A stretch of DNA of 64,000 nt from Thermocoleostomius sinensis A174 (GTDB taxonomy: Bacteria > Cyanobacteriota > Cyanobacteriia > Elainellales > Elainellaceae): positions 3,511,026 to 3,575,025 of the forward strand of contig NZ_CP113797.1 of NCBI RefSeq assembly GCF_026802175.1. The letters run 5' to 3'. A model generated the notes under the pieces. That model did no database searches and was not told the origin of the DNA. It saw only the letters and a program-made list of their open reading frames with translations. Position 1 is the stretch's first letter. Every line of letters starts with the position of its first letter. Both the position numbers and the translations under genes were made by a program. Shown in pieces: positions 9,146 through 18,240 of this stretch.

Positions 9146-10357
9146 ATGAACAGCAGTAACCGATGTCTTAACATGACTAGACGGCAAACTTTGGGGTTAG
9201 GTATTGCCTCGCTCTTATCAACTTTTGCTGGGTATTCTGGTACTGAAAACTCCTCAGCTAAAAACTTTACTGAATTATCTGAATATGAACAGTCATCTTC
9301 TGAACTAACCGACTTGTGTTCAATTTCAGAGCCTACGTGTTCCCTAGGAAGTTACGCTAAAGAGCAGGGTATTCTATACGGCGCGGCTGCAAAACACAAT
9401 ACATTATCCTCTGATTCTGAATTTGCAACAATCTTTTCACAAGAATGTCGCGTTCTTGTTCCTGAAAATGATTTGAAGTGGGAAGTTGTACGCCGTGAAC
9501 CTGGGCAATTTAACTTCTCTAAAGCAGACTGGATGGCAGAATTTGCTCAAAGCAATAATTTACAACTGCGAGGACATACTCTGCTTTGGCACCATTATTT
9601 TCCACAATGGGTTGAGCAAACTTTAGGAGCTGATAATGCAGAGGATATGCTGATTGAGCATGTTCAAACAGTAGTCAAACGCTATGCAGGGCGGATGCAT
9701 TCCTGGGATGTTGTGAATGAAGCAGTTGATCACGAATCTTCACGGCAGGACAGGCTGAGAACGTCCCCATGGTTAAGTTTCATCGGCCCAGAGTACATTG
9801 ATCTTGCCTTCTGGACTGCTCACGAGGCTGATCCTGAAGCAATCCTTGTCTATAACGACAATGGGCTCTGGTGGGATGCTCCGGAAGGAGAAGCAAAGAA
9901 AGCAGCTGTTCTTCAGTTGCTCGAAACTTTGAGGAGCCAAGGAACCCCAGTGCATGCTTTGGGCATTCAAGGTCATCTTTTGGGACATGAGATGCACCAG
10001 ATGAATCCAGAAAAACTAAGGAAATTCCTATCAGATGTGTCAAGCTTGGGGCTAGAAATTATGATTACTGAGTTAGATGTGAATGACCATAACCTGCCCG
10101 ACGATGTTGGATTGCGCGATCGTTTGGTAGCAGAGGCATACTATAATTTCCTATCGGTTGTCCTAGATGAACCTGCTGTCACAACAGTAGTAACTTGGGG
10201 ATTGAGCGATCGTGACACGTGGTACTCTGGATGGGGGCGCAAAGAGAATGCTCGTCCTTTACCGTTAGATCGAGATTTGAATCGTAAACTGGCTTGGAGG
10301 GCGATCGTCGAAAGTTTTATTAGTACCTCTCACCAGGGTGATAACATCTACAGCTAA
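9146..10357 (+). CDS. GH10 endo-1,4-beta-xylanase-like glycoside hydrolase, secreted
   Basis: A 403-residue protein with an N-terminal twin-arginine-like signal (TRRQTLGLGIASLLSTFAG, residues 11-29), a Ser/Glu-rich linker and a GH10 barrel from about residue 70. Both catalytic glutamates are present: the acid/base E192 in SWDVVNEAVD and the nucleophile E309 in IMITELDV. Substrate-subsite motifs RGHTLLWHH and TWGLSDRDTW are intact. GH10 enzymes cleave beta-1,4-xylan and related glycans. Between glycosyltransferase genes it more likely trims, releases or edits the exported polymer than digests plant xylan; that is inference. Confidence 0.93.
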   Translation: MNSSNRCLNMTRRQTLGLGIASLLSTFAGYSGTENSSAKNFTELSEYEQSSSELTDLCSISEPTCSLGSYAKEQGILYGAAAKHNTLSSDSEFATIFSQECRVLVPENDLKWEVVRREPGQFNFSKADWMAEFAQSNNLQLRGHTLLWHHYFPQWVEQTLGADNAEDMLIEHVQTVVKRYAGRMHSWDVVNEAVDHESSRQDRLRTSPWLSFIGPEYIDLAFWTAHEADPEAILVYNDNGLWWDAPEGEAKKAAVLQLLETLRSQGTPVHALGIQGHLLGHEMHQMNPEKLRKFLSDVSSLGLEIMITELDVNDHNLPDDVGLRDRLVAEAYYNFLSVVLDEPAVTTVVTWGLSDRDTWYSGWGRKENARPLPLDRDLNRKLAWRAIVESFISTSHQGDNIYS

Positions 10358-10426
10358 ATCCTTTCCACATCCTACTTTCGTCAATGCCAGAATGTTGTGA
10401 CTCTAGCATCAAAAGCTTTTAATTTT

Positions 10427-11335
10427 ATGACGATTCAGTTTCTGCCACTTGTTAGCATTGGAGTTCCTACGTATAACCGTCCGAAAACCTTAGAAAAAAC
10501 CCTGGCTAGTCTTGTTCGTCAGACTTATCCAAACATCGAGATTATTGTTTCTGATAACTGCTCACCAACTCCGGATACAGAACAAGTCGTTAGAGAATAT
10601 ATGGAAAGAGATTCTCGAATACGCTATTTCAAGCAAGAAAGAAATATTGGAGTGTTTTATAATTTTAAGTTTGTTTTTGATGTTTCTACTGGAGACTATT
10701 TTACCTGGGCTGCTGATGATGATACCCGTGCTGATAACTACATTGAGGCTTGCATGAACATATTTCAGCAGGCAGATCAATCTTCAGAACTATTACTAGT
10801 GAACTCCTATTCACAAATGGTTGATCCAAATCTTCAACATGTGCTTAAAGTTGATCGTGGCTGTACTACTGTAGGTCTGAAACCTTCACAACGCTACTAT
10901 CGATACTTGTCTTCAATTTACACCGAGCAGGCTGCTATCGGTGATTTGATCTATGGTGTTATCAAATCTCAGCCTCTTAAAGAAGTGATGGAAAAGCAGC
11001 CAAACATCTTAGATTGGGATCACATTTTCTTGGCAACTCTAGCAATTGAAGGGGAATTTCTTTCAATCCCCGAGCCATTAATGACTTCTTCTCCTGGTGG
11101 TATGTCCACTTTGCAAGATGCAAAGAAAATGGCAAAGATACAACTAATTCAAAATCCCTTGTACATCAACAAGGCACAATGGGTCCGCTGCTTATTTCTA
11201 CAGCAAAGGGTTTGGAGTTCTTCGAAAATATTTATATTTAACAAAATAAAATTATCAATTTGGGTGATATTTGATACGCTTGTCAAGCATTTCATGAGAA
11301 GTTCTTCTAAAATTAAAGTAAAAGTAAACAACTAA
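10427..11335 (+). CDS. Glycosyltransferase family 2
   Basis: GT2 enzyme with LVSIGVPTYNRPKTLEKTL at the N-terminus, IIVSDNCSPTPDTE and a triple-Asp metal site (WAADDDTRADNY). I use the ATG at 10427; a GTG at 10397 would add ten residues, and neither has a convincing ribosome site. The C-terminal 60 residues are basic and partly hydrophobic (IKLSIWVIFDTLVKHFMR), suggesting peripheral membrane attachment. It sits between the GH10 gene and the acyltransferase on the same strand. Donor and acceptor are unknown. Confidence 0.88.
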   Translation: MTIQFLPLVSIGVPTYNRPKTLEKTLASLVRQTYPNIEIIVSDNCSPTPDTEQVVREYMERDSRIRYFKQERNIGVFYNFKFVFDVSTGDYFTWAADDDTRADNYIEACMNIFQQADQSSELLLVNSYSQMVDPNLQHVLKVDRGCTTVGLKPSQRYYRYLSSIYTEQAAIGDLIYGVIKSQPLKEVMEKQPNILDWDHIFLATLAIEGEFLSIPEPLMTSSPGGMSTLQDAKKMAKIQLIQNPLYINKAQWVRCLFLQQRVWSSSKIFIFNKIKLSIWVIFDTLVKHFMRSSSKIKVKVNN

Positions 11336-11669
11336 AACATCATAGACAAAAAACAAATAATTTACTGCTATATTTAAGTCAACTTGATTTTAAGGATTTA
11401 TTTTTGACTGTATTCAAACACAGGGAGCCTTTCAAACTTTTTCGTCTACACTGAAGTTTAAACAGATAACCCATATGATGTATCTCGAAAACTAGACGAA
11501 AACTAACATGGAGTTGTTTATATAAAAACTGACTAAGACTACAAAAATAGTCGGAATTATGCGGCAAAATGGTACAGTGCAAATTTGTTCAAGGCTAATT
11601 TTGTAAGGGATTTGACTATCTTCTTAAATATTCTCCTAGTAGAAACTATTATCATGCGGAGTATTGCTA
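11336..11669. other. Intergenic, AT-rich, nothing identified
   Basis: No gene, RNA or clear repeat is seen. A GGAG at 11658-11661 serves as the ribosome site for the ATG at 11670. Confidence 0.5.
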
Positions 11670-12470
11670 ATGTCTCTGATAGAGTCAGATGATTTGAGAG
11701 AGAAATTTAGTAAATATCGTAAGGATTTTCTCACACTCAATCTACCTGCTATTGAGAACCATATTATTCGGAGAACTAAATTTCGAATTCATTACGAACC
11801 AAGCTCGATTCTATCCTACTTTATAGAATCTACTGTTCTTAGGAGTGTTGGTTGGGTTCCTGGATTGTTTGGCGCTTTGTTGCGCAATCTAATTTATCAA
11901 CCTCTATTCGCAAAAATGGAACTATTAGCTTTTATTGAAGCTGGAGTAGAGATTAAGTCTGCCGGATCTATTGAGTTGGAGAAACAAGCGCTCATCCATA
12001 GAGGAGTTTACTTGAACGGTTGGCACAAAAACAGTAGAATTTGCTTGAAGGAACGTGCTTATCTGGATCGCAACGTTACAATTACAGTTCATGAGAATGG
12101 TTATATTGAAATTGGAAAACTAACCTATATCGGACCATCAACCTGTATAGCCGGTCCTGGACCTGTAAGAATAGGCAGCTATTGCTTAATATCCTCTGGT
12201 TGTGGGATTTATGGCAATAACCATGTGTTTGATGATCCAACGATTTTAATTCGGGAACAAGGATTTACCAACAAAGGAATTACGATTGAGGACGATTGCT
12301 GGCTTGGAACAGGTGTTAAGGTTTTGGATGGAGTTACGATCGGTAAGGGTAGTGTGATCGGCGCTGGTGCGGTAGTTACTAAGGATATACCTGCCTATTC
12401 TGTTGCTGTTGGTGTTCCTGCTCGAGTAATTTCTAAACGCGGCGTTAAAGGAAGTTCTCTTGAGAAGTAG
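11670..12470 (+). CDS. Left-handed beta-helix acyltransferase (sugar O-acetyltransferase-like)
   Basis: About 266 residues with a C-terminal run of hexapeptide repeats. The repeats run from about residue 90 and end in the family signature ITIEDDCWLGTGVKVLDGVT, IGKGSVIGAGAVVTKDIP and SVAVGVPARVI. The loop YGNNHVFDDPTILIREQGF carries the His expected as the catalytic base in xenobiotic/galactoside-type acetyltransferases. It probably decorates the exopolysaccharide repeat with O-acetyl groups. The ATG at 11670 is eight bases after a GGAG; a TTG at 11664 is too close to that site. The N-terminal 85 residues are outside the helix and unassigned. Confidence 0.85.
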   Translation: MSLIESDDLREKFSKYRKDFLTLNLPAIENHIIRRTKFRIHYEPSSILSYFIESTVLRSVGWVPGLFGALLRNLIYQPLFAKMELLAFIEAGVEIKSAGSIELEKQALIHRGVYLNGWHKNSRICLKERAYLDRNVTITVHENGYIEIGKLTYIGPSTCIAGPGPVRIGSYCLISSGCGIYGNNHVFDDPTILIREQGFTNKGITIEDDCWLGTGVKVLDGVTIGKGSVIGAGAVVTKDIPAYSVAVGVPARVISKRGVKGSSLEK

Positions 12471-12506
12471 TAAATTTCTGTGCTCAAGCCAGTTGTAGCT
12501 TCCAAC

Positions 12507-12808
12507 GCAAAAAACACCGATGCTTGCTGGACGAAGGAGGGAAATCAGAGCTACTTCGGTTACAAAAAACATATCGGCATTATCGAGACAGACCCAAAGT
12601 ACGCCCTCAGAGTCGAGTCAAATTAGTCTGTTCAGTAGGTTTAGTCCGAGTTAAGGCGACTCTGGGACTGAAAAATCTGACCCACAACTTGGTGCATCAC
12701 ACGTTTTTACAGACTCAATGTGCTTGCCAAGGCAGAACGTTGAAGCTCAAGAGTGCATTGGAGGATTCTGTTGACCTCATAAATTTGAGGTTGATGGAAT
12801 GGCTCTAG
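12507..12808 (+). pseudogene. IS5-type transposase C-terminal remnant, frameshifted
   Basis: The C-terminal part of an IS5-family DDE transposase survives in two frames. One frame, 12507-12626, reads DACWTKEGNQSYFGYKKHI and stops at TAG (12624). It matches the family's DARWTKK..YYGYKNH motif that includes the last catalytic region. From about 12629 a second frame, in phase with the ATG at 12524, reads GLVRVKATLGLKNLTHNLVH, the usual terminal motif. A frameshift near 12625 therefore separates them. The N-terminal two thirds are gone and I see no terminal inverted repeats. The remnant sits between two polysaccharide genes. Family assignment is from memory of the motifs. Confidence 0.75.
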
Positions 12809-12884
12809 TACAACATTGTTTTTCGGCTTATTTGAGCTCTAATCTCTCCTCAAAACAGGTTAATCGAGGGTTCCTGCGATCTGT

Positions 12885-13826
12885 ATGAAAGTAGTCTATT
12901 TAATTCAAACATACTGGAATGCTCAACAAATATATCGACTGGTAAGAACGCTTAAGCAGGCAAGTCCGAATTGCTTCGTGTTAGTCTACCATGATGCTAG
13001 TGTTTTTGAACTGGATTCTGCACCTATTCAGAAATATGATGATGTTGTTGTAATTAATACTAAAATTCAACCTAGGCGCGGTCGATTTTCTTTAGTGCAG
13101 TGTTATCTAGATGCGGTTAATTGGTTGTTCCATCACCATATAGATTTTGATTGGCTTTGTAATCTTTCAGGACAAGATTATCCAATCCAACCTTTGTCTG
13201 AAATTGAAGAATATTTATTCACTACTTCGTACGATGGTTTCATCGAATATTTCGACGCTTTATCTACTGAAAATAGTAGCTTATGGCAACACCAAGAAGG
13301 GATAAGTCGCTACTTTTATCAATACAGATGGTTGTTTGATGTCTCAACAGACTGGCTAAGAACACTATCTAAACCTGTAAAGATAATAGTGAACCATGGG
13401 CAAACTTTTTTAAAGATTCAAACGACCTATGGTATCGCGGTAGGTGTTCGAGCTAACCCAAGCCCATTTGACTCTGATCTGATTTGTTATGTAGGATCGG
13501 ACTTCAAAACACTTTCAAAAAAATGCGTTCAGTTTATTTATGAAACCTTTAAAGAAAATGGAAGTTTAGTTGAATACTATAGAAAGACATGCTTGCCTGA
13601 AGAATCTTTTGTTCAAACCATCCTAGTAAATAGCAAAAAATTTAACCTGCTCAACGACAATAAACGATTTATTAAGTGGGGAAATCAATCTCAGGGACAT
13701 CCTCAGCTTTTAGTTACTACCGACTACTTGAGCTTAACTAAGACTGATGCCCATTTCGCGAGGAAGTTTGATTGTAACAAGGATAGTAACATCTTAGATT
13801 TGTTAGATTGCAAGATTCTGAGTTAA
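12885..13826 (+). CDS. Core-2/I-branching-type beta-glycosyltransferase (GT14, Branch family)
   Basis: A 313-residue transferase of the Branch family (PF02485), related to beta-1,6-N-acetylglucosaminyl- and xylosyltransferases. The diagnostic segment is FDWLCNLSGQDYPIQPLSEIEEYL (about residues 85-108, given in part). Others are the N-terminal MKVVYLIQTYWNAQQIYRLV, the LVYHDASV strand and the C-terminal CLPEESFVQTILVNS motif, whose glutamates match the catalytic region. The enzyme is metal-independent in known relatives. It may introduce a branch in the repeat unit. A xylosyl role would suit the neighbouring GH10 enzyme, but that is speculation. Confidence 0.85.
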   Translation: MKVVYLIQTYWNAQQIYRLVRTLKQASPNCFVLVYHDASVFELDSAPIQKYDDVVVINTKIQPRRGRFSLVQCYLDAVNWLFHHHIDFDWLCNLSGQDYPIQPLSEIEEYLFTTSYDGFIEYFDALSTENSSLWQHQEGISRYFYQYRWLFDVSTDWLRTLSKPVKIIVNHGQTFLKIQTTYGIAVGVRANPSPFDSDLICYVGSDFKTLSKKCVQFIYETFKENGSLVEYYRKTCLPEESFVQTILVNSKKFNLLNDNKRFIKWGNQSQGHPQLLVTTDYLSLTKTDAHFARKFDCNKDSNILDLLDCKILS

Positions 13827-13974
13827 CTTCTCACTTAAAGCTACATGAGTTAGTTACTATTAATTATTTAAATTTGAGTTGAGGTATTAATTCATAACTT
13901 GAAAAAATGCCTGTTTTCAAAAATTTATACGATAAAATTTTTAAGAATTTTTTCTTGGTAAGAACTAATTTTGT

Positions 13975-14895
13975 ATGACTAAACTGACTCCTTTACAAGT
14001 TCCTGTTGTATTAATTATTTTCAAGCGACCTCATACTACTCAGCAAGTTTTGAATGCTATTCGAATCGTTTGTCCTAAAAAGCTAGTCGTCATTGCTGAT
14101 GGACCTCGTTTGGATCGGGAAGGAGAAGCAGAAGCGTGTGCCAGAACCCGAGCTGTTATTGATCAGGTTGATTGGAATTGTGAGGTGATAAAACATTACT
14201 CTGAAATCAACCTTGGCTGCGGTGTGCGTCCAGCTACAGGATTAGATTGGGTTTTTGAACAGTTTGAAGACGCCATTATCCTTGAGGACGACTGCTTACC
14301 TGATCCAACTTTCTTTTATTTTTGTGAAGAGTTACTAGAGAAATATAGGCATGAATCTAAAATTATGTCGATTTGTGGTAGCCGATTTGTCCCCAGTACT
14401 ACACCCTTCAGCTATTACTTTTCTCACTATGTTAGTTGTTGGGGATGGGCAACTTGGCGTCGAGCTTGGCAACATTTTGATTTTGAAATAGGACAATGGT
14501 CTAAGCTCCGTGAATCGGCATGGCTAGAACAGTACCTACAAAATCAGAAGGTTGCTGATTGCTGGAGTCAGCGGTTTCAGAGTGTTTACCGGTCAGGGCA
14601 AAATCATATTTGGGACTATCAATGGCAATTTGCCTGTTGGCTTAACAAATCTTTAAGTATTCGTCCCAATGTCAATCTAATTTCAAACATTGGAATTGGT
14701 GCAGATTCAACTCACACGCTCCAGAATTCTAGTGGGGCAAAAACTCGGAAGCTTGAAGCAATGTCTTTTCCCCTACGACATCCGGGCATAGTTGATCGGG
14801 ATATACAGGCAGATTTACTTGTAGAAAAGGAATGTTTTACCAGACCTAGCTTTCTAACTCGTGCTTACCAAAAACTTTACAGATTATTAGCATAA
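13975..14895 (+). CDS. Glycosyltransferase, HlpA-like (GT-A fold)
   Basis: 306 residues. The start is PVVLIIFKRPHTTQQVLNAI, then VVIADGPR. The metal motif is in IILEDDCLPDPTFFYF (about residues 101-116). Aromatic-rich loops follow (SHYVSCWGWATWRRAW). Related cyanobacterial proteins are often labelled hemolytic protein HlpA or glycosyltransferase; the EDD motif and position in the locus support the transferase reading. Donor and acceptor are unknown. The ATG at 13975 is the first in frame, after an AT-rich leader with no clear ribosome site. Confidence 0.82.
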   Translation: MTKLTPLQVPVVLIIFKRPHTTQQVLNAIRIVCPKKLVVIADGPRLDREGEAEACARTRAVIDQVDWNCEVIKHYSEINLGCGVRPATGLDWVFEQFEDAIILEDDCLPDPTFFYFCEELLEKYRHESKIMSICGSRFVPSTTPFSYYFSHYVSCWGWATWRRAWQHFDFEIGQWSKLRESAWLEQYLQNQKVADCWSQRFQSVYRSGQNHIWDYQWQFACWLNKSLSIRPNVNLISNIGIGADSTHTLQNSSGAKTRKLEAMSFPLRHPGIVDRDIQADLLVEKECFTRPSFLTRAYQKLYRLLA

Positions 14896-15057
14896 GCAAC
14901 ATAAATTTTAACAAGTAAGCAATTATAATCGTGATTTAAAGAGTGCAGTTAGTACAAGCTTAGTTTACCGACGAAGGTTTGAATTTCATGCCTCGGCTGT
15001 GTTTACACCTATTTCCAATTGCTTTAAAGTCTGCGATCGATTTACGTTACTAGAAAT

Positions 15058-16410
15058 ATGAGAGACTTAGTAGTAGGGTTGGTGAGCAATCCTGTTATTG
15101 TAATCAGTAGTGGCATCTTTGTTGTTTTATTTTCAATGCTTGTTTTAGCTTGGACAAATAAGAGTAAAAAAAACTTAGAACAACTTGAATTTTGCTTTAT
15201 TGTATTCATTTTTTTTTGTCTCACACCTATTAATTTAACTCCATTCATTCATTGGAGACCAAACTATTTTTGGGTGCCTCCTCCTAATGCCATTTTATCT
15301 AGTTTTCAAGTTCTTATTTATGCTTATATATTGCTTGTCTCACGTAAGAAATTATCCGCTTTTTTGATACGAGAACTAATTCCATATTTAAGATGCAGTA
15401 TCATTCGAAATCCTTTTTTTTGGGGCTTGAGTTTCTTAGGAGTTGCTTCGTCTTTTTGGTCAGAAACTCCTTTAATCACCTTTAAAGCAGGGCTTATTTT
15501 ACTAATAGCGAACCTTTCTTTTCTTGCTATTTGCAAGTATTCCGACTTTTGGCAAATTTCAACGTTTGTTCGTTGGAGTGCTGTGCCAATAGCAATCTTA
15601 AGCTTTATCATTCGTCGTAAAACCAATGATGGTACAACAGCTGGTGGAGGTCTAGCTGGTATCCTCTTCTCAAAAAATGAGCTAGGGGCTTTGATGGCTA
15701 TAAGCATTATATTGTGGGTTTTGACCGCTATCTATGTTCCTAAAGCACGCCTTTTTTCTTGTCTAATCTCAATAGTGTTTACCCTTCTTCTTATTCAAGC
15801 TAAATCCGGAGGGGCAATCGTTCATTTGTTTATACTGTTCTTGCTAATTCTCGCCGTTCAATTTACTAAGAAACTGAGAGATAAAGTTGCGGTATTAAAC
15901 ATAATTTTCTGTATATTGGTTGCATGTATTGCTTTTTCATTTACTATTACTAATCTAGGGTTTATTCTACAGAGGTTTCTTGGCAAAGATTTGTCTTTTA
16001 CAGGACGGACAAATATTTGGCCACCTGTTTGGGATGCAGTAACTCATCGAATGTGGACTGGTTATGGTTTACACGGCTTTTGGCAAGAGTGGCGTGGTGC
16101 GAACAATCCTGCATTAGATTGGTATAAAGGATTTTGGTATCCTCCTAATGCTCACTTTGGTTTTCTTGACGCCTGGGTACAACTGGGCGCATTCGGAGTC
16201 TTAATTCTAATTACTGCAATTTTGCTTAGTGTGTTTCAAGCGGTTTCCTATCTTATCCGCTCTAAATGTAAGCAAGCAGTGATTCCCATATTTTTTGTTA
16301 CCTATTTTATACTAGCCAATCTTTCTGAAACCCGTTTGTTGGATTTTAATTTCGTGTGGGTTACATATAGCATTACATCGATTAAGTTATCTCTCGAATC
16401 AAACACATAA
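15058..16410 (+). CDS. O-antigen ligase/polymerase family membrane protein (Wzy/WaaL type)
   Basis: 450 residues with about 11 membrane segments and a large periplasmic loop (about residues 300-370, TGRTNIWPPVWDAVTHRM... to ...WYPPNAHFGFLD). That loop pattern and the motif GRTNIW with a following YGLHGFW are typical of the O-antigen ligase (PF04932) superfamily. In a locus with a Wzx flippase and a Wzc co-polymerase it most likely acts as the Wzy polymerase, joining repeat units in the periplasm. Its TAA stop overlaps the ATG of the next frame by one base (16410), so the downstream stump could be translationally coupled. Confidence 0.87.
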   Translation: MRDLVVGLVSNPVIVISSGIFVVLFSMLVLAWTNKSKKNLEQLEFCFIVFIFFCLTPINLTPFIHWRPNYFWVPPPNAILSSFQVLIYAYILLVSRKKLSAFLIRELIPYLRCSIIRNPFFWGLSFLGVASSFWSETPLITFKAGLILLIANLSFLAICKYSDFWQISTFVRWSAVPIAILSFIIRRKTNDGTTAGGGLAGILFSKNELGALMAISIILWVLTAIYVPKARLFSCLISIVFTLLLIQAKSGGAIVHLFILFLLILAVQFTKKLRDKVAVLNIIFCILVACIAFSFTITNLGFILQRFLGKDLSFTGRTNIWPPVWDAVTHRMWTGYGLHGFWQEWRGANNPALDWYKGFWYPPNAHFGFLDAWVQLGAFGVLILITAILLSVFQAVSYLIRSKCKQAVIPIFFVTYFILANLSETRLLDFNFVWVTYSITSIKLSLESNT

Positions 16411-16953: not shown

Positions 16954-18240
16954 ATGCGGCGTTCTTCCATGACCAACACGATCGCACTGATTGCCCACGA
17001 CTCGAAAAAAGATGACATTGTTGAGTTTGCCCGCCAGTACACTCCCCTATTGGGACGCTATCGATTAATTGCAACAGGAACCACCGGGCAACGAATTGAA
17101 GTAGCAACAGGACTGCCCATTGAACGCCTGTTGTCTGGACCCTTAGGAGGGGATGCTCAAATTGCGGCAGAAGTGGCAACAGGCGGGGTACTTGCCGTCA
17201 TCTTTCTAGTTGATCCGCTGTATGCACAACCGCACGAACCAGACATTCAAGCATTGTTGCGCATTTGCAATGTGCATAATGTGCCGTTGGCGACCAATCT
17301 GGCTACCGCGGAAGCTATCGTCGCTCGATTTGCTAAGACGCTGATTGCCCACCTCATCTACAATCCGGTGTCTGGACAAGGGAATGCCGAGCAGGATTTA
17401 GACCTGATTCGTCAGTTGCTAGAACCCCACTTACATTTGCATGTGCATGTCACTGAACCAGACGATGATCCAGGGGAATTAGTGCGGGCGGCGATCGCCG
17501 CAGAAGCCGATTTGGTGATTGCTTCGGGTGGAGATGGAACCGTCTCTGCCGTTGCCGATGCTTTAATTGGCACGGGTGTTCCCCTGGGGATTATTCCACG
17601 CGGTACAGCCAACGCCTTTGCCGTATCCCTTGGAATTTCCAGATTTTTGCCAATTCGTAATGCTTGTCAGGTCATTTTGGGAGGTCATACCCGTCTAGTA
17701 GATGCAGCGCGTTGCAATGGCTATCCTATGATTCTGCTAACGGGGGTGGGCTACGAGGCCGTGACCGTAGAAATGGCCAGTCGAGAATTAAAAAATCAGT
17801 GGGGTGCGCTTGCCTACTTTATGGCCGGGTGGCAAGCACTGGAAGGCCAAGAATTATTTGAAACTGAGATTGAAACCGAGGGGGATGTTTACACGTTTCA
17901 AGCCCATGCGATTACGATCGCCAATGCCGCCCCTCCCACCTCAATCTTGGCTCAAGGAGCTGGCGAAGTGGTATTTGATGATGGGCTGTTAGATGTCACG
18001 ATCGCGTCGGCTGAAAATCGTTTACAGGGCATCACCACCATGTTTCGCATGTTGGGCGGAGCAATCACGCGAACCAACATTGAGCAACAAAACGTGGTGC
18101 ATGTGCGAACGCCTCGTCTCAAAGTCACCACAACTCCTCCACAAAAAGTGGTGGTAGATGGCGAAATCGTCGGCACAACCCCGATCGAGGTGGAATGTAT
18201 TCCAGCCGCACTGTCAGTCTTTGCACCTAAACCTTCCTAA
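16954..18240 (+). CDS. Methylglyoxal synthase - YegS/BmrU-type lipid kinase fusion
   Basis: Two enzymes in one 428-residue chain. Residues about 8-125 are methylglyoxal synthase: [10 protein letters not shown] (His15), the phosphate loop [16 protein letters not shown] with catalytic-type Asp67, and [18 protein letters not shown] with His94 and Asp97. Residues about 132-425 are a diacylglycerol-kinase-type catalytic domain: [12 protein letters not shown], the ATP motif [15 protein letters not shown] (192-196 GGDGT), [12 protein letters not shown], and the C-terminal [15 protein letters not shown]. The first would convert dihydroxyacetone phosphate to methylglyoxal; the second would phosphorylate a lipid. 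ATG 16954 is used; ATG 16969 is equally plausible. I recall this fusion in other cyanobacteria. Confidence 0.9.

Follow-up and report, generated by a model that had tools for sequence, protein, structure and literature searches.

The open reading frame at 16954–18240 of the window (the whole 64,000-nucleotide stretch of the Thermocoleostomius sinensis A174 genome analyzed here) is confirmed, by its conserved residues and family scores, to join an intact methylglyoxal synthase (MGS) to an intact lipid kinase of the YegS/DgkB type. Comparison with its relatives revealed an asymmetry that is new here: within this family of fused proteins, MGS catalytic residues have been lost repeatedly, whereas the kinase motifs have been kept. 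The features of the gene are as follows.

16954..18240, + strand: fused gene, MGS domain plus lipid kinase, 428 aa; one uninterrupted frame from the ATG at 16954 to the stop at 18240
16972..17337, + strand: MGS domain, residues ~7–128 (TIGR00160 above cut-off; motif table)
17338..17361, + strand: junction, in which MGS helix 116–128 and one residue lead to kinase strand 130–136 (AlphaFold2 secondary structure)
17350..17715, + strand: DAGK_cat kinase catalytic domain, residues 133–254 (PF00781, E 2e-30)
17527..17541, + strand: GGDGT nucleotide-binding motif, residues 192–196 (142 of 142 aligned rows)
17746..18222, + strand: YegS_C beta-sandwich domain, residues 265–423 (PF19279, E 4.2e-17)

The fusion proposed in an initial annotation of this DNA is real: the two halves occupy a single frame, and both score above curated cut-offs. 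Residues 7–147 reached 184.1 bits against the MGSA family model TIGR00160 (curated cut-off 146.9), placing them within the MGS family, and residues 120–426 reached 442.8 bits against the lipid kinase model NF002033 (curated cut-off 293). PF00781 (105.4 bits, cut-off 23.6) and PF19279 (62.8 bits, cut-off 27) were likewise exceeded, and PF02142 (MGS) matched the 428-aa protein with an E value of 9.5e-15. These scores, together with the many relatives described below, rule out chance similarity or a frame artefact. The motifs of the MGS domain comprise H15, D16, K19, TGTTG (41–45), SGPLGGD (61–67), D87, H94, and D97, among which are the full catalytic series of H, D, D, H, and D (H15, D67, D87, H94, D97), the lysine (K19), and the phosphate loop (TGTTG); the catalytic roles of the five residues are ones that we take over from E. 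coli MGS, a hexameric enzyme. The kinase half combines GGDGT with the two-domain fold of YegS/DgkB lipid kinases. Residue numbers assigned earlier to the two active sites (H15, D67, H94, D97, and GGDGT at 192–196) proved exact, and both sets are complete in this protein. Judged by its motif content, the N-terminal half in this organism probably converts dihydroxyacetone phosphate (DHAP) to methylglyoxal with release of phosphate, and the substrate of the kinase is probably diacylglycerol (DAG) or another lipid alcohol.

AlphaFold2 (41 sequences) modeled the single chain as two folded domains, with a mean pLDDT of 85.0 and a pTM of 0.76, and joined the MGS to the kinase without a linker. Because residues 1–6 have pLDDT values below 50 and most relatives align only from residue 2–6, translation may actually begin at the ATG at 16969. 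Foldseek searches with the model returned DAG kinases and MGS, and a sequence search of the Protein Data Bank found the first half nearest to Thermus MGS and the second nearest to BmrU-type DAG kinases, DgkB, and YegS. The Thermus enzymes (1wo8, 2x8w, 2xw6) are 60–64% identical to the window MGS over nearly the whole chain but stand alone; 1wo8, at 64% identity, aligned over residues 3–121 of its 126, and its chains gave TMt values of 0.92–0.94 among the matches listed. DgkB (2qv7), BmrU/DAGK (3s40, 3t5p), and YegS (2bon) have the fold (TMt ~0.76–0.84) and GGDGT in common with the window kinase at ~21–26% identity, but carry no MGS domain.

The genome is a single contig of 5.81 Mb, and its one TIGR00160 match is the fused gene. 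PF02142 has three matches there, the fused gene and frames of 1107 and 520 aa, which by frame size alone are read as carbamoyl-phosphate synthase and PurH; no MGS other than the fused gene was found in the genome. Glyoxalase I also scores above cut-off, and PF00781 is found at five places, among them a stand-alone kinase paralogue of the same subfamily (L005, NF002033). Upstream of the fused gene lies a polysaccharide-type run of genes (9146–16410, +) that starts with a xylanase-like ORF (9146–10357, +, by eye), includes glycosyltransferase-like and acyltransferase-like genes (by eye), and extends to an O-antigen ligase family gene (15058–16410, +; Pfam). A ClpP-like SDH-type serine proteinase gene faces the fused gene from the opposite strand. 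Among the genes beside the fused gene, we found no explanation of its function and no alpha-glucan genes.

Similar cyanobacterial fusions, which the initial annotation had mentioned, do exist: relatives that encode the two halves as one frame show ~56–78% identity over their best segment, and those named include Leptolyngbya, Phormidium, Microseira, Pleurocapsa, Acaryochloris, and Spirulina. Across a sample of 386 genomes of the phylum, TIGR00160 matched in 56 and NF002033 exceeded its cut-off in 93, and 42 genomes, from 18 families, yielded 43 fusions of MGS and kinase. Non-cyanobacterial matches among the 80 loci kept covered the MGS part only. Three genomes (G005, G357, G097) hold frames that appeared fused by length but carry other extensions, at the N end in L184 and at the C end in L185 and L186, and these were therefore left out of the count; in L184 (2704–4398, +), whose kinase belongs to the same subfamily, the N-terminal extension is not an MGS, spans ~240 aa, and by eye resembles a PRC barrel. 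Unfused genes in near relatives, which had been named as evidence against the fusion, also occur: stand-alone MGS genes are present in Laspinema and in some Oscillatoria and Phormidium records (L059–L064), and kinases of this subfamily are often found alone. In the MGS tree, which has few columns and weakly resolved inner forks, the four of these six MGS that it includes nest within the fused clade.

The alignment used for the comparisons below holds 89 fused rows and 53 others. The 89 represent 84 distinct kinase sequences and are not a species count, since some organisms are probably present in both collections. Duplicates (L003/L004), kinases below 150 bits (L006–L008) or shorter than 250 aa, and broken or cut rows (L053, L054, L067) were dropped before counting, and the 53 "alone" rows include two that are probably fused, L051 at a contig edge and L055 with a frame break. 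In L053, L055, and L067 the fused gene carries a stop codon within the frame, breaks frame between its two halves, or lacks the middle of the kinase, defects that reflect either real decay or assembly error.

The architecture is already in print. Kadeer et al. (2024; PMC11897720) describe Synechocystis sp. PCC 6803 Sll0036 as an MGS motif with a C-terminal NADK motif, an arrangement present in only certain cyanobacteria; they judge kinase activity unlikely, the NE/ND site being absent, and report that deletion of sll0036 lowered cell methylglyoxal and raised mixotrophic growth. As so described, Sll0036 shares with the window protein, itself an intact example, the arrangement of MGS plus kinase-like part in one chain; the second half, called an NADK motif in that account, is here assigned to the YegS/DgkB lipid kinases, with its motifs kept. 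The likeness is drawn from this description and from two primer-matched rows rather than from the sequence of Sll0036 itself: the published sll0036 primers match both L089 and L090 closely, with 5 of 30 mismatches for one primer and 2–3 of 31 for the other, and both rows are fused MGS-kinases. A term search of the main text of PMC7407080 did not find sll0036. Within the open-access literature, we found no paper on an MGS fused to a lipid or diacylglycerol kinase and no activity in print for the kinase half. The fusion had been called unusual, a description to be tempered: 42 of 386 genomes hold 43 such proteins and, for Sll0036 as described, the architecture has been published.

The asymmetry between the halves emerges from residue counts. 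All five MGS catalytic positions (H15, D67, D87, H94, D97) are kept in 63 of the 89 fused rows, with L012 scored as kept despite an altered phosphate loop; at least one is changed in the other 26, where changed does not equal inactive, as L010, L011, and L110 have one conservative swap each. Among the 43 fused rows of the genome sample, the five are kept in 19. By contrast, none of the 142 rows lacks GGDGT, GTAN, or D402-G403 in its kinase. Loss of a catalytic set, raised by the initial annotation as a possible refutation, is not seen in the window protein or in these kinase motifs, but does affect, at one or more of the five residues, the MGS half of the 26. On our first, ten-residue scale, the 89 divide into 65 intact, 5 partial, and 19 decayed rows.

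A careful kinase tree of 81 rows recovered the fused clade with support of 100/100 (72 for the fused/alone split in a first quick tree), apart from 14 of 15 stand-alone rows. These are cyanobacterial stand-alone lipid kinases of the same subfamily (NF002033, PRK00861), which lack the MGS domain and lie on the other side of the tree; L193, a kinase without an MGS domain, sits within the fused clade, at the end of a long branch. With 21 of the 26 changed rows in this tree, the kept and lost states are separated by nine changes, at least seven of them forced by starred branches, or by six, at least four of them forced, if L010, L011, and L110, with their single conservative swaps, are scored as kept. 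We infer that the changes are most simply losses, because rows in the kept state have the same residues as stand-alone MGS. The five residues are intact in 29 of 29 stand-alone MGS, a figure biased in its ascertainment because one search pattern contained HEPD. In a fairer set, consisting of MGS without this kinase from the genome-sample search, 12 of 13 have all five, and eight further MGS-like rows without this kinase (five FHA-type and three cNMP-like) are decayed, for 12 of 21 overall.

Although catalytically altered, the decayed domains retain the hallmarks of the fold. By hhalign, five groups of them matched intact fused MGS with 96.1–99.9% probability and stand-alone MGS with 91.9–99.5%. 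The 19 most decayed rows, whose residue columns depend on the alignment, have lost the phosphate loop and, for the most part, H15, K19, and H94, but they keep the core residues L12, A14, L38, L54, L101, R103, P111, A113, N115, and A119 as well as the helix into the kinase; D67 persists in 16 of the 19, so the decay is not uniform. Gaps interrupt the decayed domain in L140 and L141, and the other decayed rows are near full length. Values of dN/dS were 0.10–0.38 for decayed domains (10 pairs, one of the partial kind) and 0.05–0.135 for intact domains (8 pairs, with two further pairs saturated), in pairs that were hand-chosen and share sequences and with ranges that overlap. By this measure, the decayed domains still evolve under purifying selection. 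They also evolve faster than the kinase, which can be read as slow degeneration as well.

Gene neighborhoods offered different clues for intact and decayed members. Across 89 loci and 616 ORFs, we found no conserved operon partner for intact members and few recurrent neighbors, and the surroundings of most intact genes, the window gene included, yielded no functional hint. Among decayed members, phosphatase associations amount to about two events. The first is family f19, with 13 decayed rows, where a metallophosphoesterase gene lies directly downstream in 10 (nine overlapping the stop and one at 13 bases) and a PAP2 phosphatase gene directly upstream in 6. The second is the pair L134 (3696–5768, +) and L140 (3635–5713, +), sisters in the tree from families other than f19, which are triple fusions of a decayed MGS, the lipid kinase, and a C-terminal PAP2. 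The presence of PAP2 fused to or directly upstream of decayed members fits lipid phosphate chemistry. Some intact members instead have alpha-glucan neighbors: glycogen phosphorylase directly upstream in four loci of family f2, a GH57 gene upstream in L013 and L098, and a divergent gene read by eye as GlgX in L009. This pattern, which was noticed after the fact and is missing from most intact loci, is no more than suggestive.

MGS and MGS-like domains were also observed in other settings. L112 (1462–2412, −) fuses a cyclic-nucleotide-binding domain (Pfam, L112 only) to an MGS with its five catalytic residues complete, and from this composition could be a cyclic-nucleotide-controlled methylglyoxal synthase. 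Related frames occur in L113–L118, L120, L121, and L123, mostly in family f19; in the open-access literature, we found nothing on MGS with cyclic-nucleotide binding beyond a Leptospira transcriptome. L127 (2040–4049, +) has an N-terminal FHA domain (Pfam, L127 only) and is one of a set of frames of 609–678 aa (L127, L128, L131–L133) that end in a decayed MGS-like domain. In L139 (3421–4227, +), and also in L138 and L142, a decayed MGS-like domain follows a weak cyclic-nucleotide-binding match, which for L139 falls below the Pfam cut-off; the genomes of all three also hold a decayed-MGS kinase fusion. Finally, L108 (1489–2856, +), of family f32 in another class of the phylum, encodes a complete-residue MGS followed by ~330 aa in which no Pfam family exceeds its cut-off.

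Taking these results together, we lean toward a reading in which the kinase is the constant function, with the MGS fold acting as scaffold or regulator for it and, in the window protein, probably still catalytic. Repeated loss of the MGS active site alongside retention of the kinase motifs is what suggests that the fused protein may often serve in this way. Under the proposed mechanism, a two-enzyme cyanobacterial protein would pair a C-terminal YegS/DgkB-type lipid kinase with an N-terminal MGS whose fold would act as a scaffold for kinase oligomers. In members with an intact phosphate site, such as the window protein, the MGS domain may report DHAP or phosphate status while making methylglyoxal; elsewhere it would have become, several times, a non-catalytic accessory domain. 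The sensor role cannot hold in the 19 most decayed rows, in which the phosphate loop is gone. There is precedent for such a use of the fold, as the MGS-like regulatory domain of carbamoyl-phosphate synthase is a non-catalytic allosteric domain. The fuller history seems to us an evenly balanced proposition: after one fusion, MGS catalysis would have been dropped about six times clearly (nine with single swaps), with the fold kept under selection as an accessory of the lipid kinase, and members like the window protein would represent the still-catalytic state, which could convey the carbon or phosphate state of the cell to the phosphorylation of membrane lipids.

Among other readings, the best surviving, though an unlikely one, is that the two enzymes cooperate so that an overflow of triose phosphate or glycogen is tied to phosphorylation of membrane lipids, and that this coupling is why they are fused. 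It draws on the complete catalytic sets of the window protein and on the glycogen phosphorylase, GH57, and GlgX-like neighbors. Since the window organism's own genome has ~25 GH13, GH57, and phosphorylase genes (same-frame fragments merged by hand), three separate alpha-glucan adjacencies exceed a rough, hand-estimated expectation. However, the glycogen link is post hoc, not all of these families act on glycogen, and none of them surrounds the window gene, which leaves the triose-phosphate-to-membrane connection circumstantial. A coupling of methylglyoxal to lipid phosphorylation, as suggested in the initial annotation, cannot moreover be the fusion's general purpose, because 26 of the 89 fused rows have changed MGS residues, the kinase motifs never change, and those proteins stay fused.

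Somewhat less probable still is an accident that placed two unrelated activities in one gene with no functional link, leaving a dispensable MGS half to degenerate slowly. The repeated residue losses, the higher dN/dS of the decayed domain, the MGS-less L193 within the fused clade, possible fission in the Laspinema-type records, and the domain gaps of L140 and L141 would all follow from it; against it, the decayed domain has kept nearly its whole length outside those two rows, its core is conserved, and its dN/dS lies well below 1. We consider it very improbable that the C-terminal half, as suggested for Sll0036 in PMC11897720, is an inactive domain of the NAD kinase kind whose role is to bind NAD and control the MGS: PF01513 is just over its cut-off (28.2 versus 25.5 bits), GGDG is present, and the NE/ND motif is reported there as absent from Sll0036, but the PF01513 E value of 2.6e-6 falls far short of those for PF00781 and PF19279, none of 13 NCBIfam matches is an NAD kinase model, and the top folds are DAG kinases (BmrU, DgkB) and YegS, followed by sphingosine kinase 1 (best 50 of 80, E ≤ 0.001). 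An NAD kinase identity is accordingly rejected, and decay of the MGS rather than of the kinase motifs is the reverse of what an NAD-binding MGS regulator predicts.

The preferred reading, with the lipid kinase as the constant function, bears on how this family is annotated and studied. Some cyanobacterial genes that match MGS models are probably not methylglyoxal synthases. The second half of a published model gene, sll0036 as described in PMC11897720, is reinterpreted as a lipid kinase rather than a dead NAD kinase, and the knockout phenotype merits a second look because the mutant has lost a probable lipid kinase as well. The fused family, running from live to decayed enzyme, provides a natural series for testing how an enzyme of metabolism is converted into an accessory domain.
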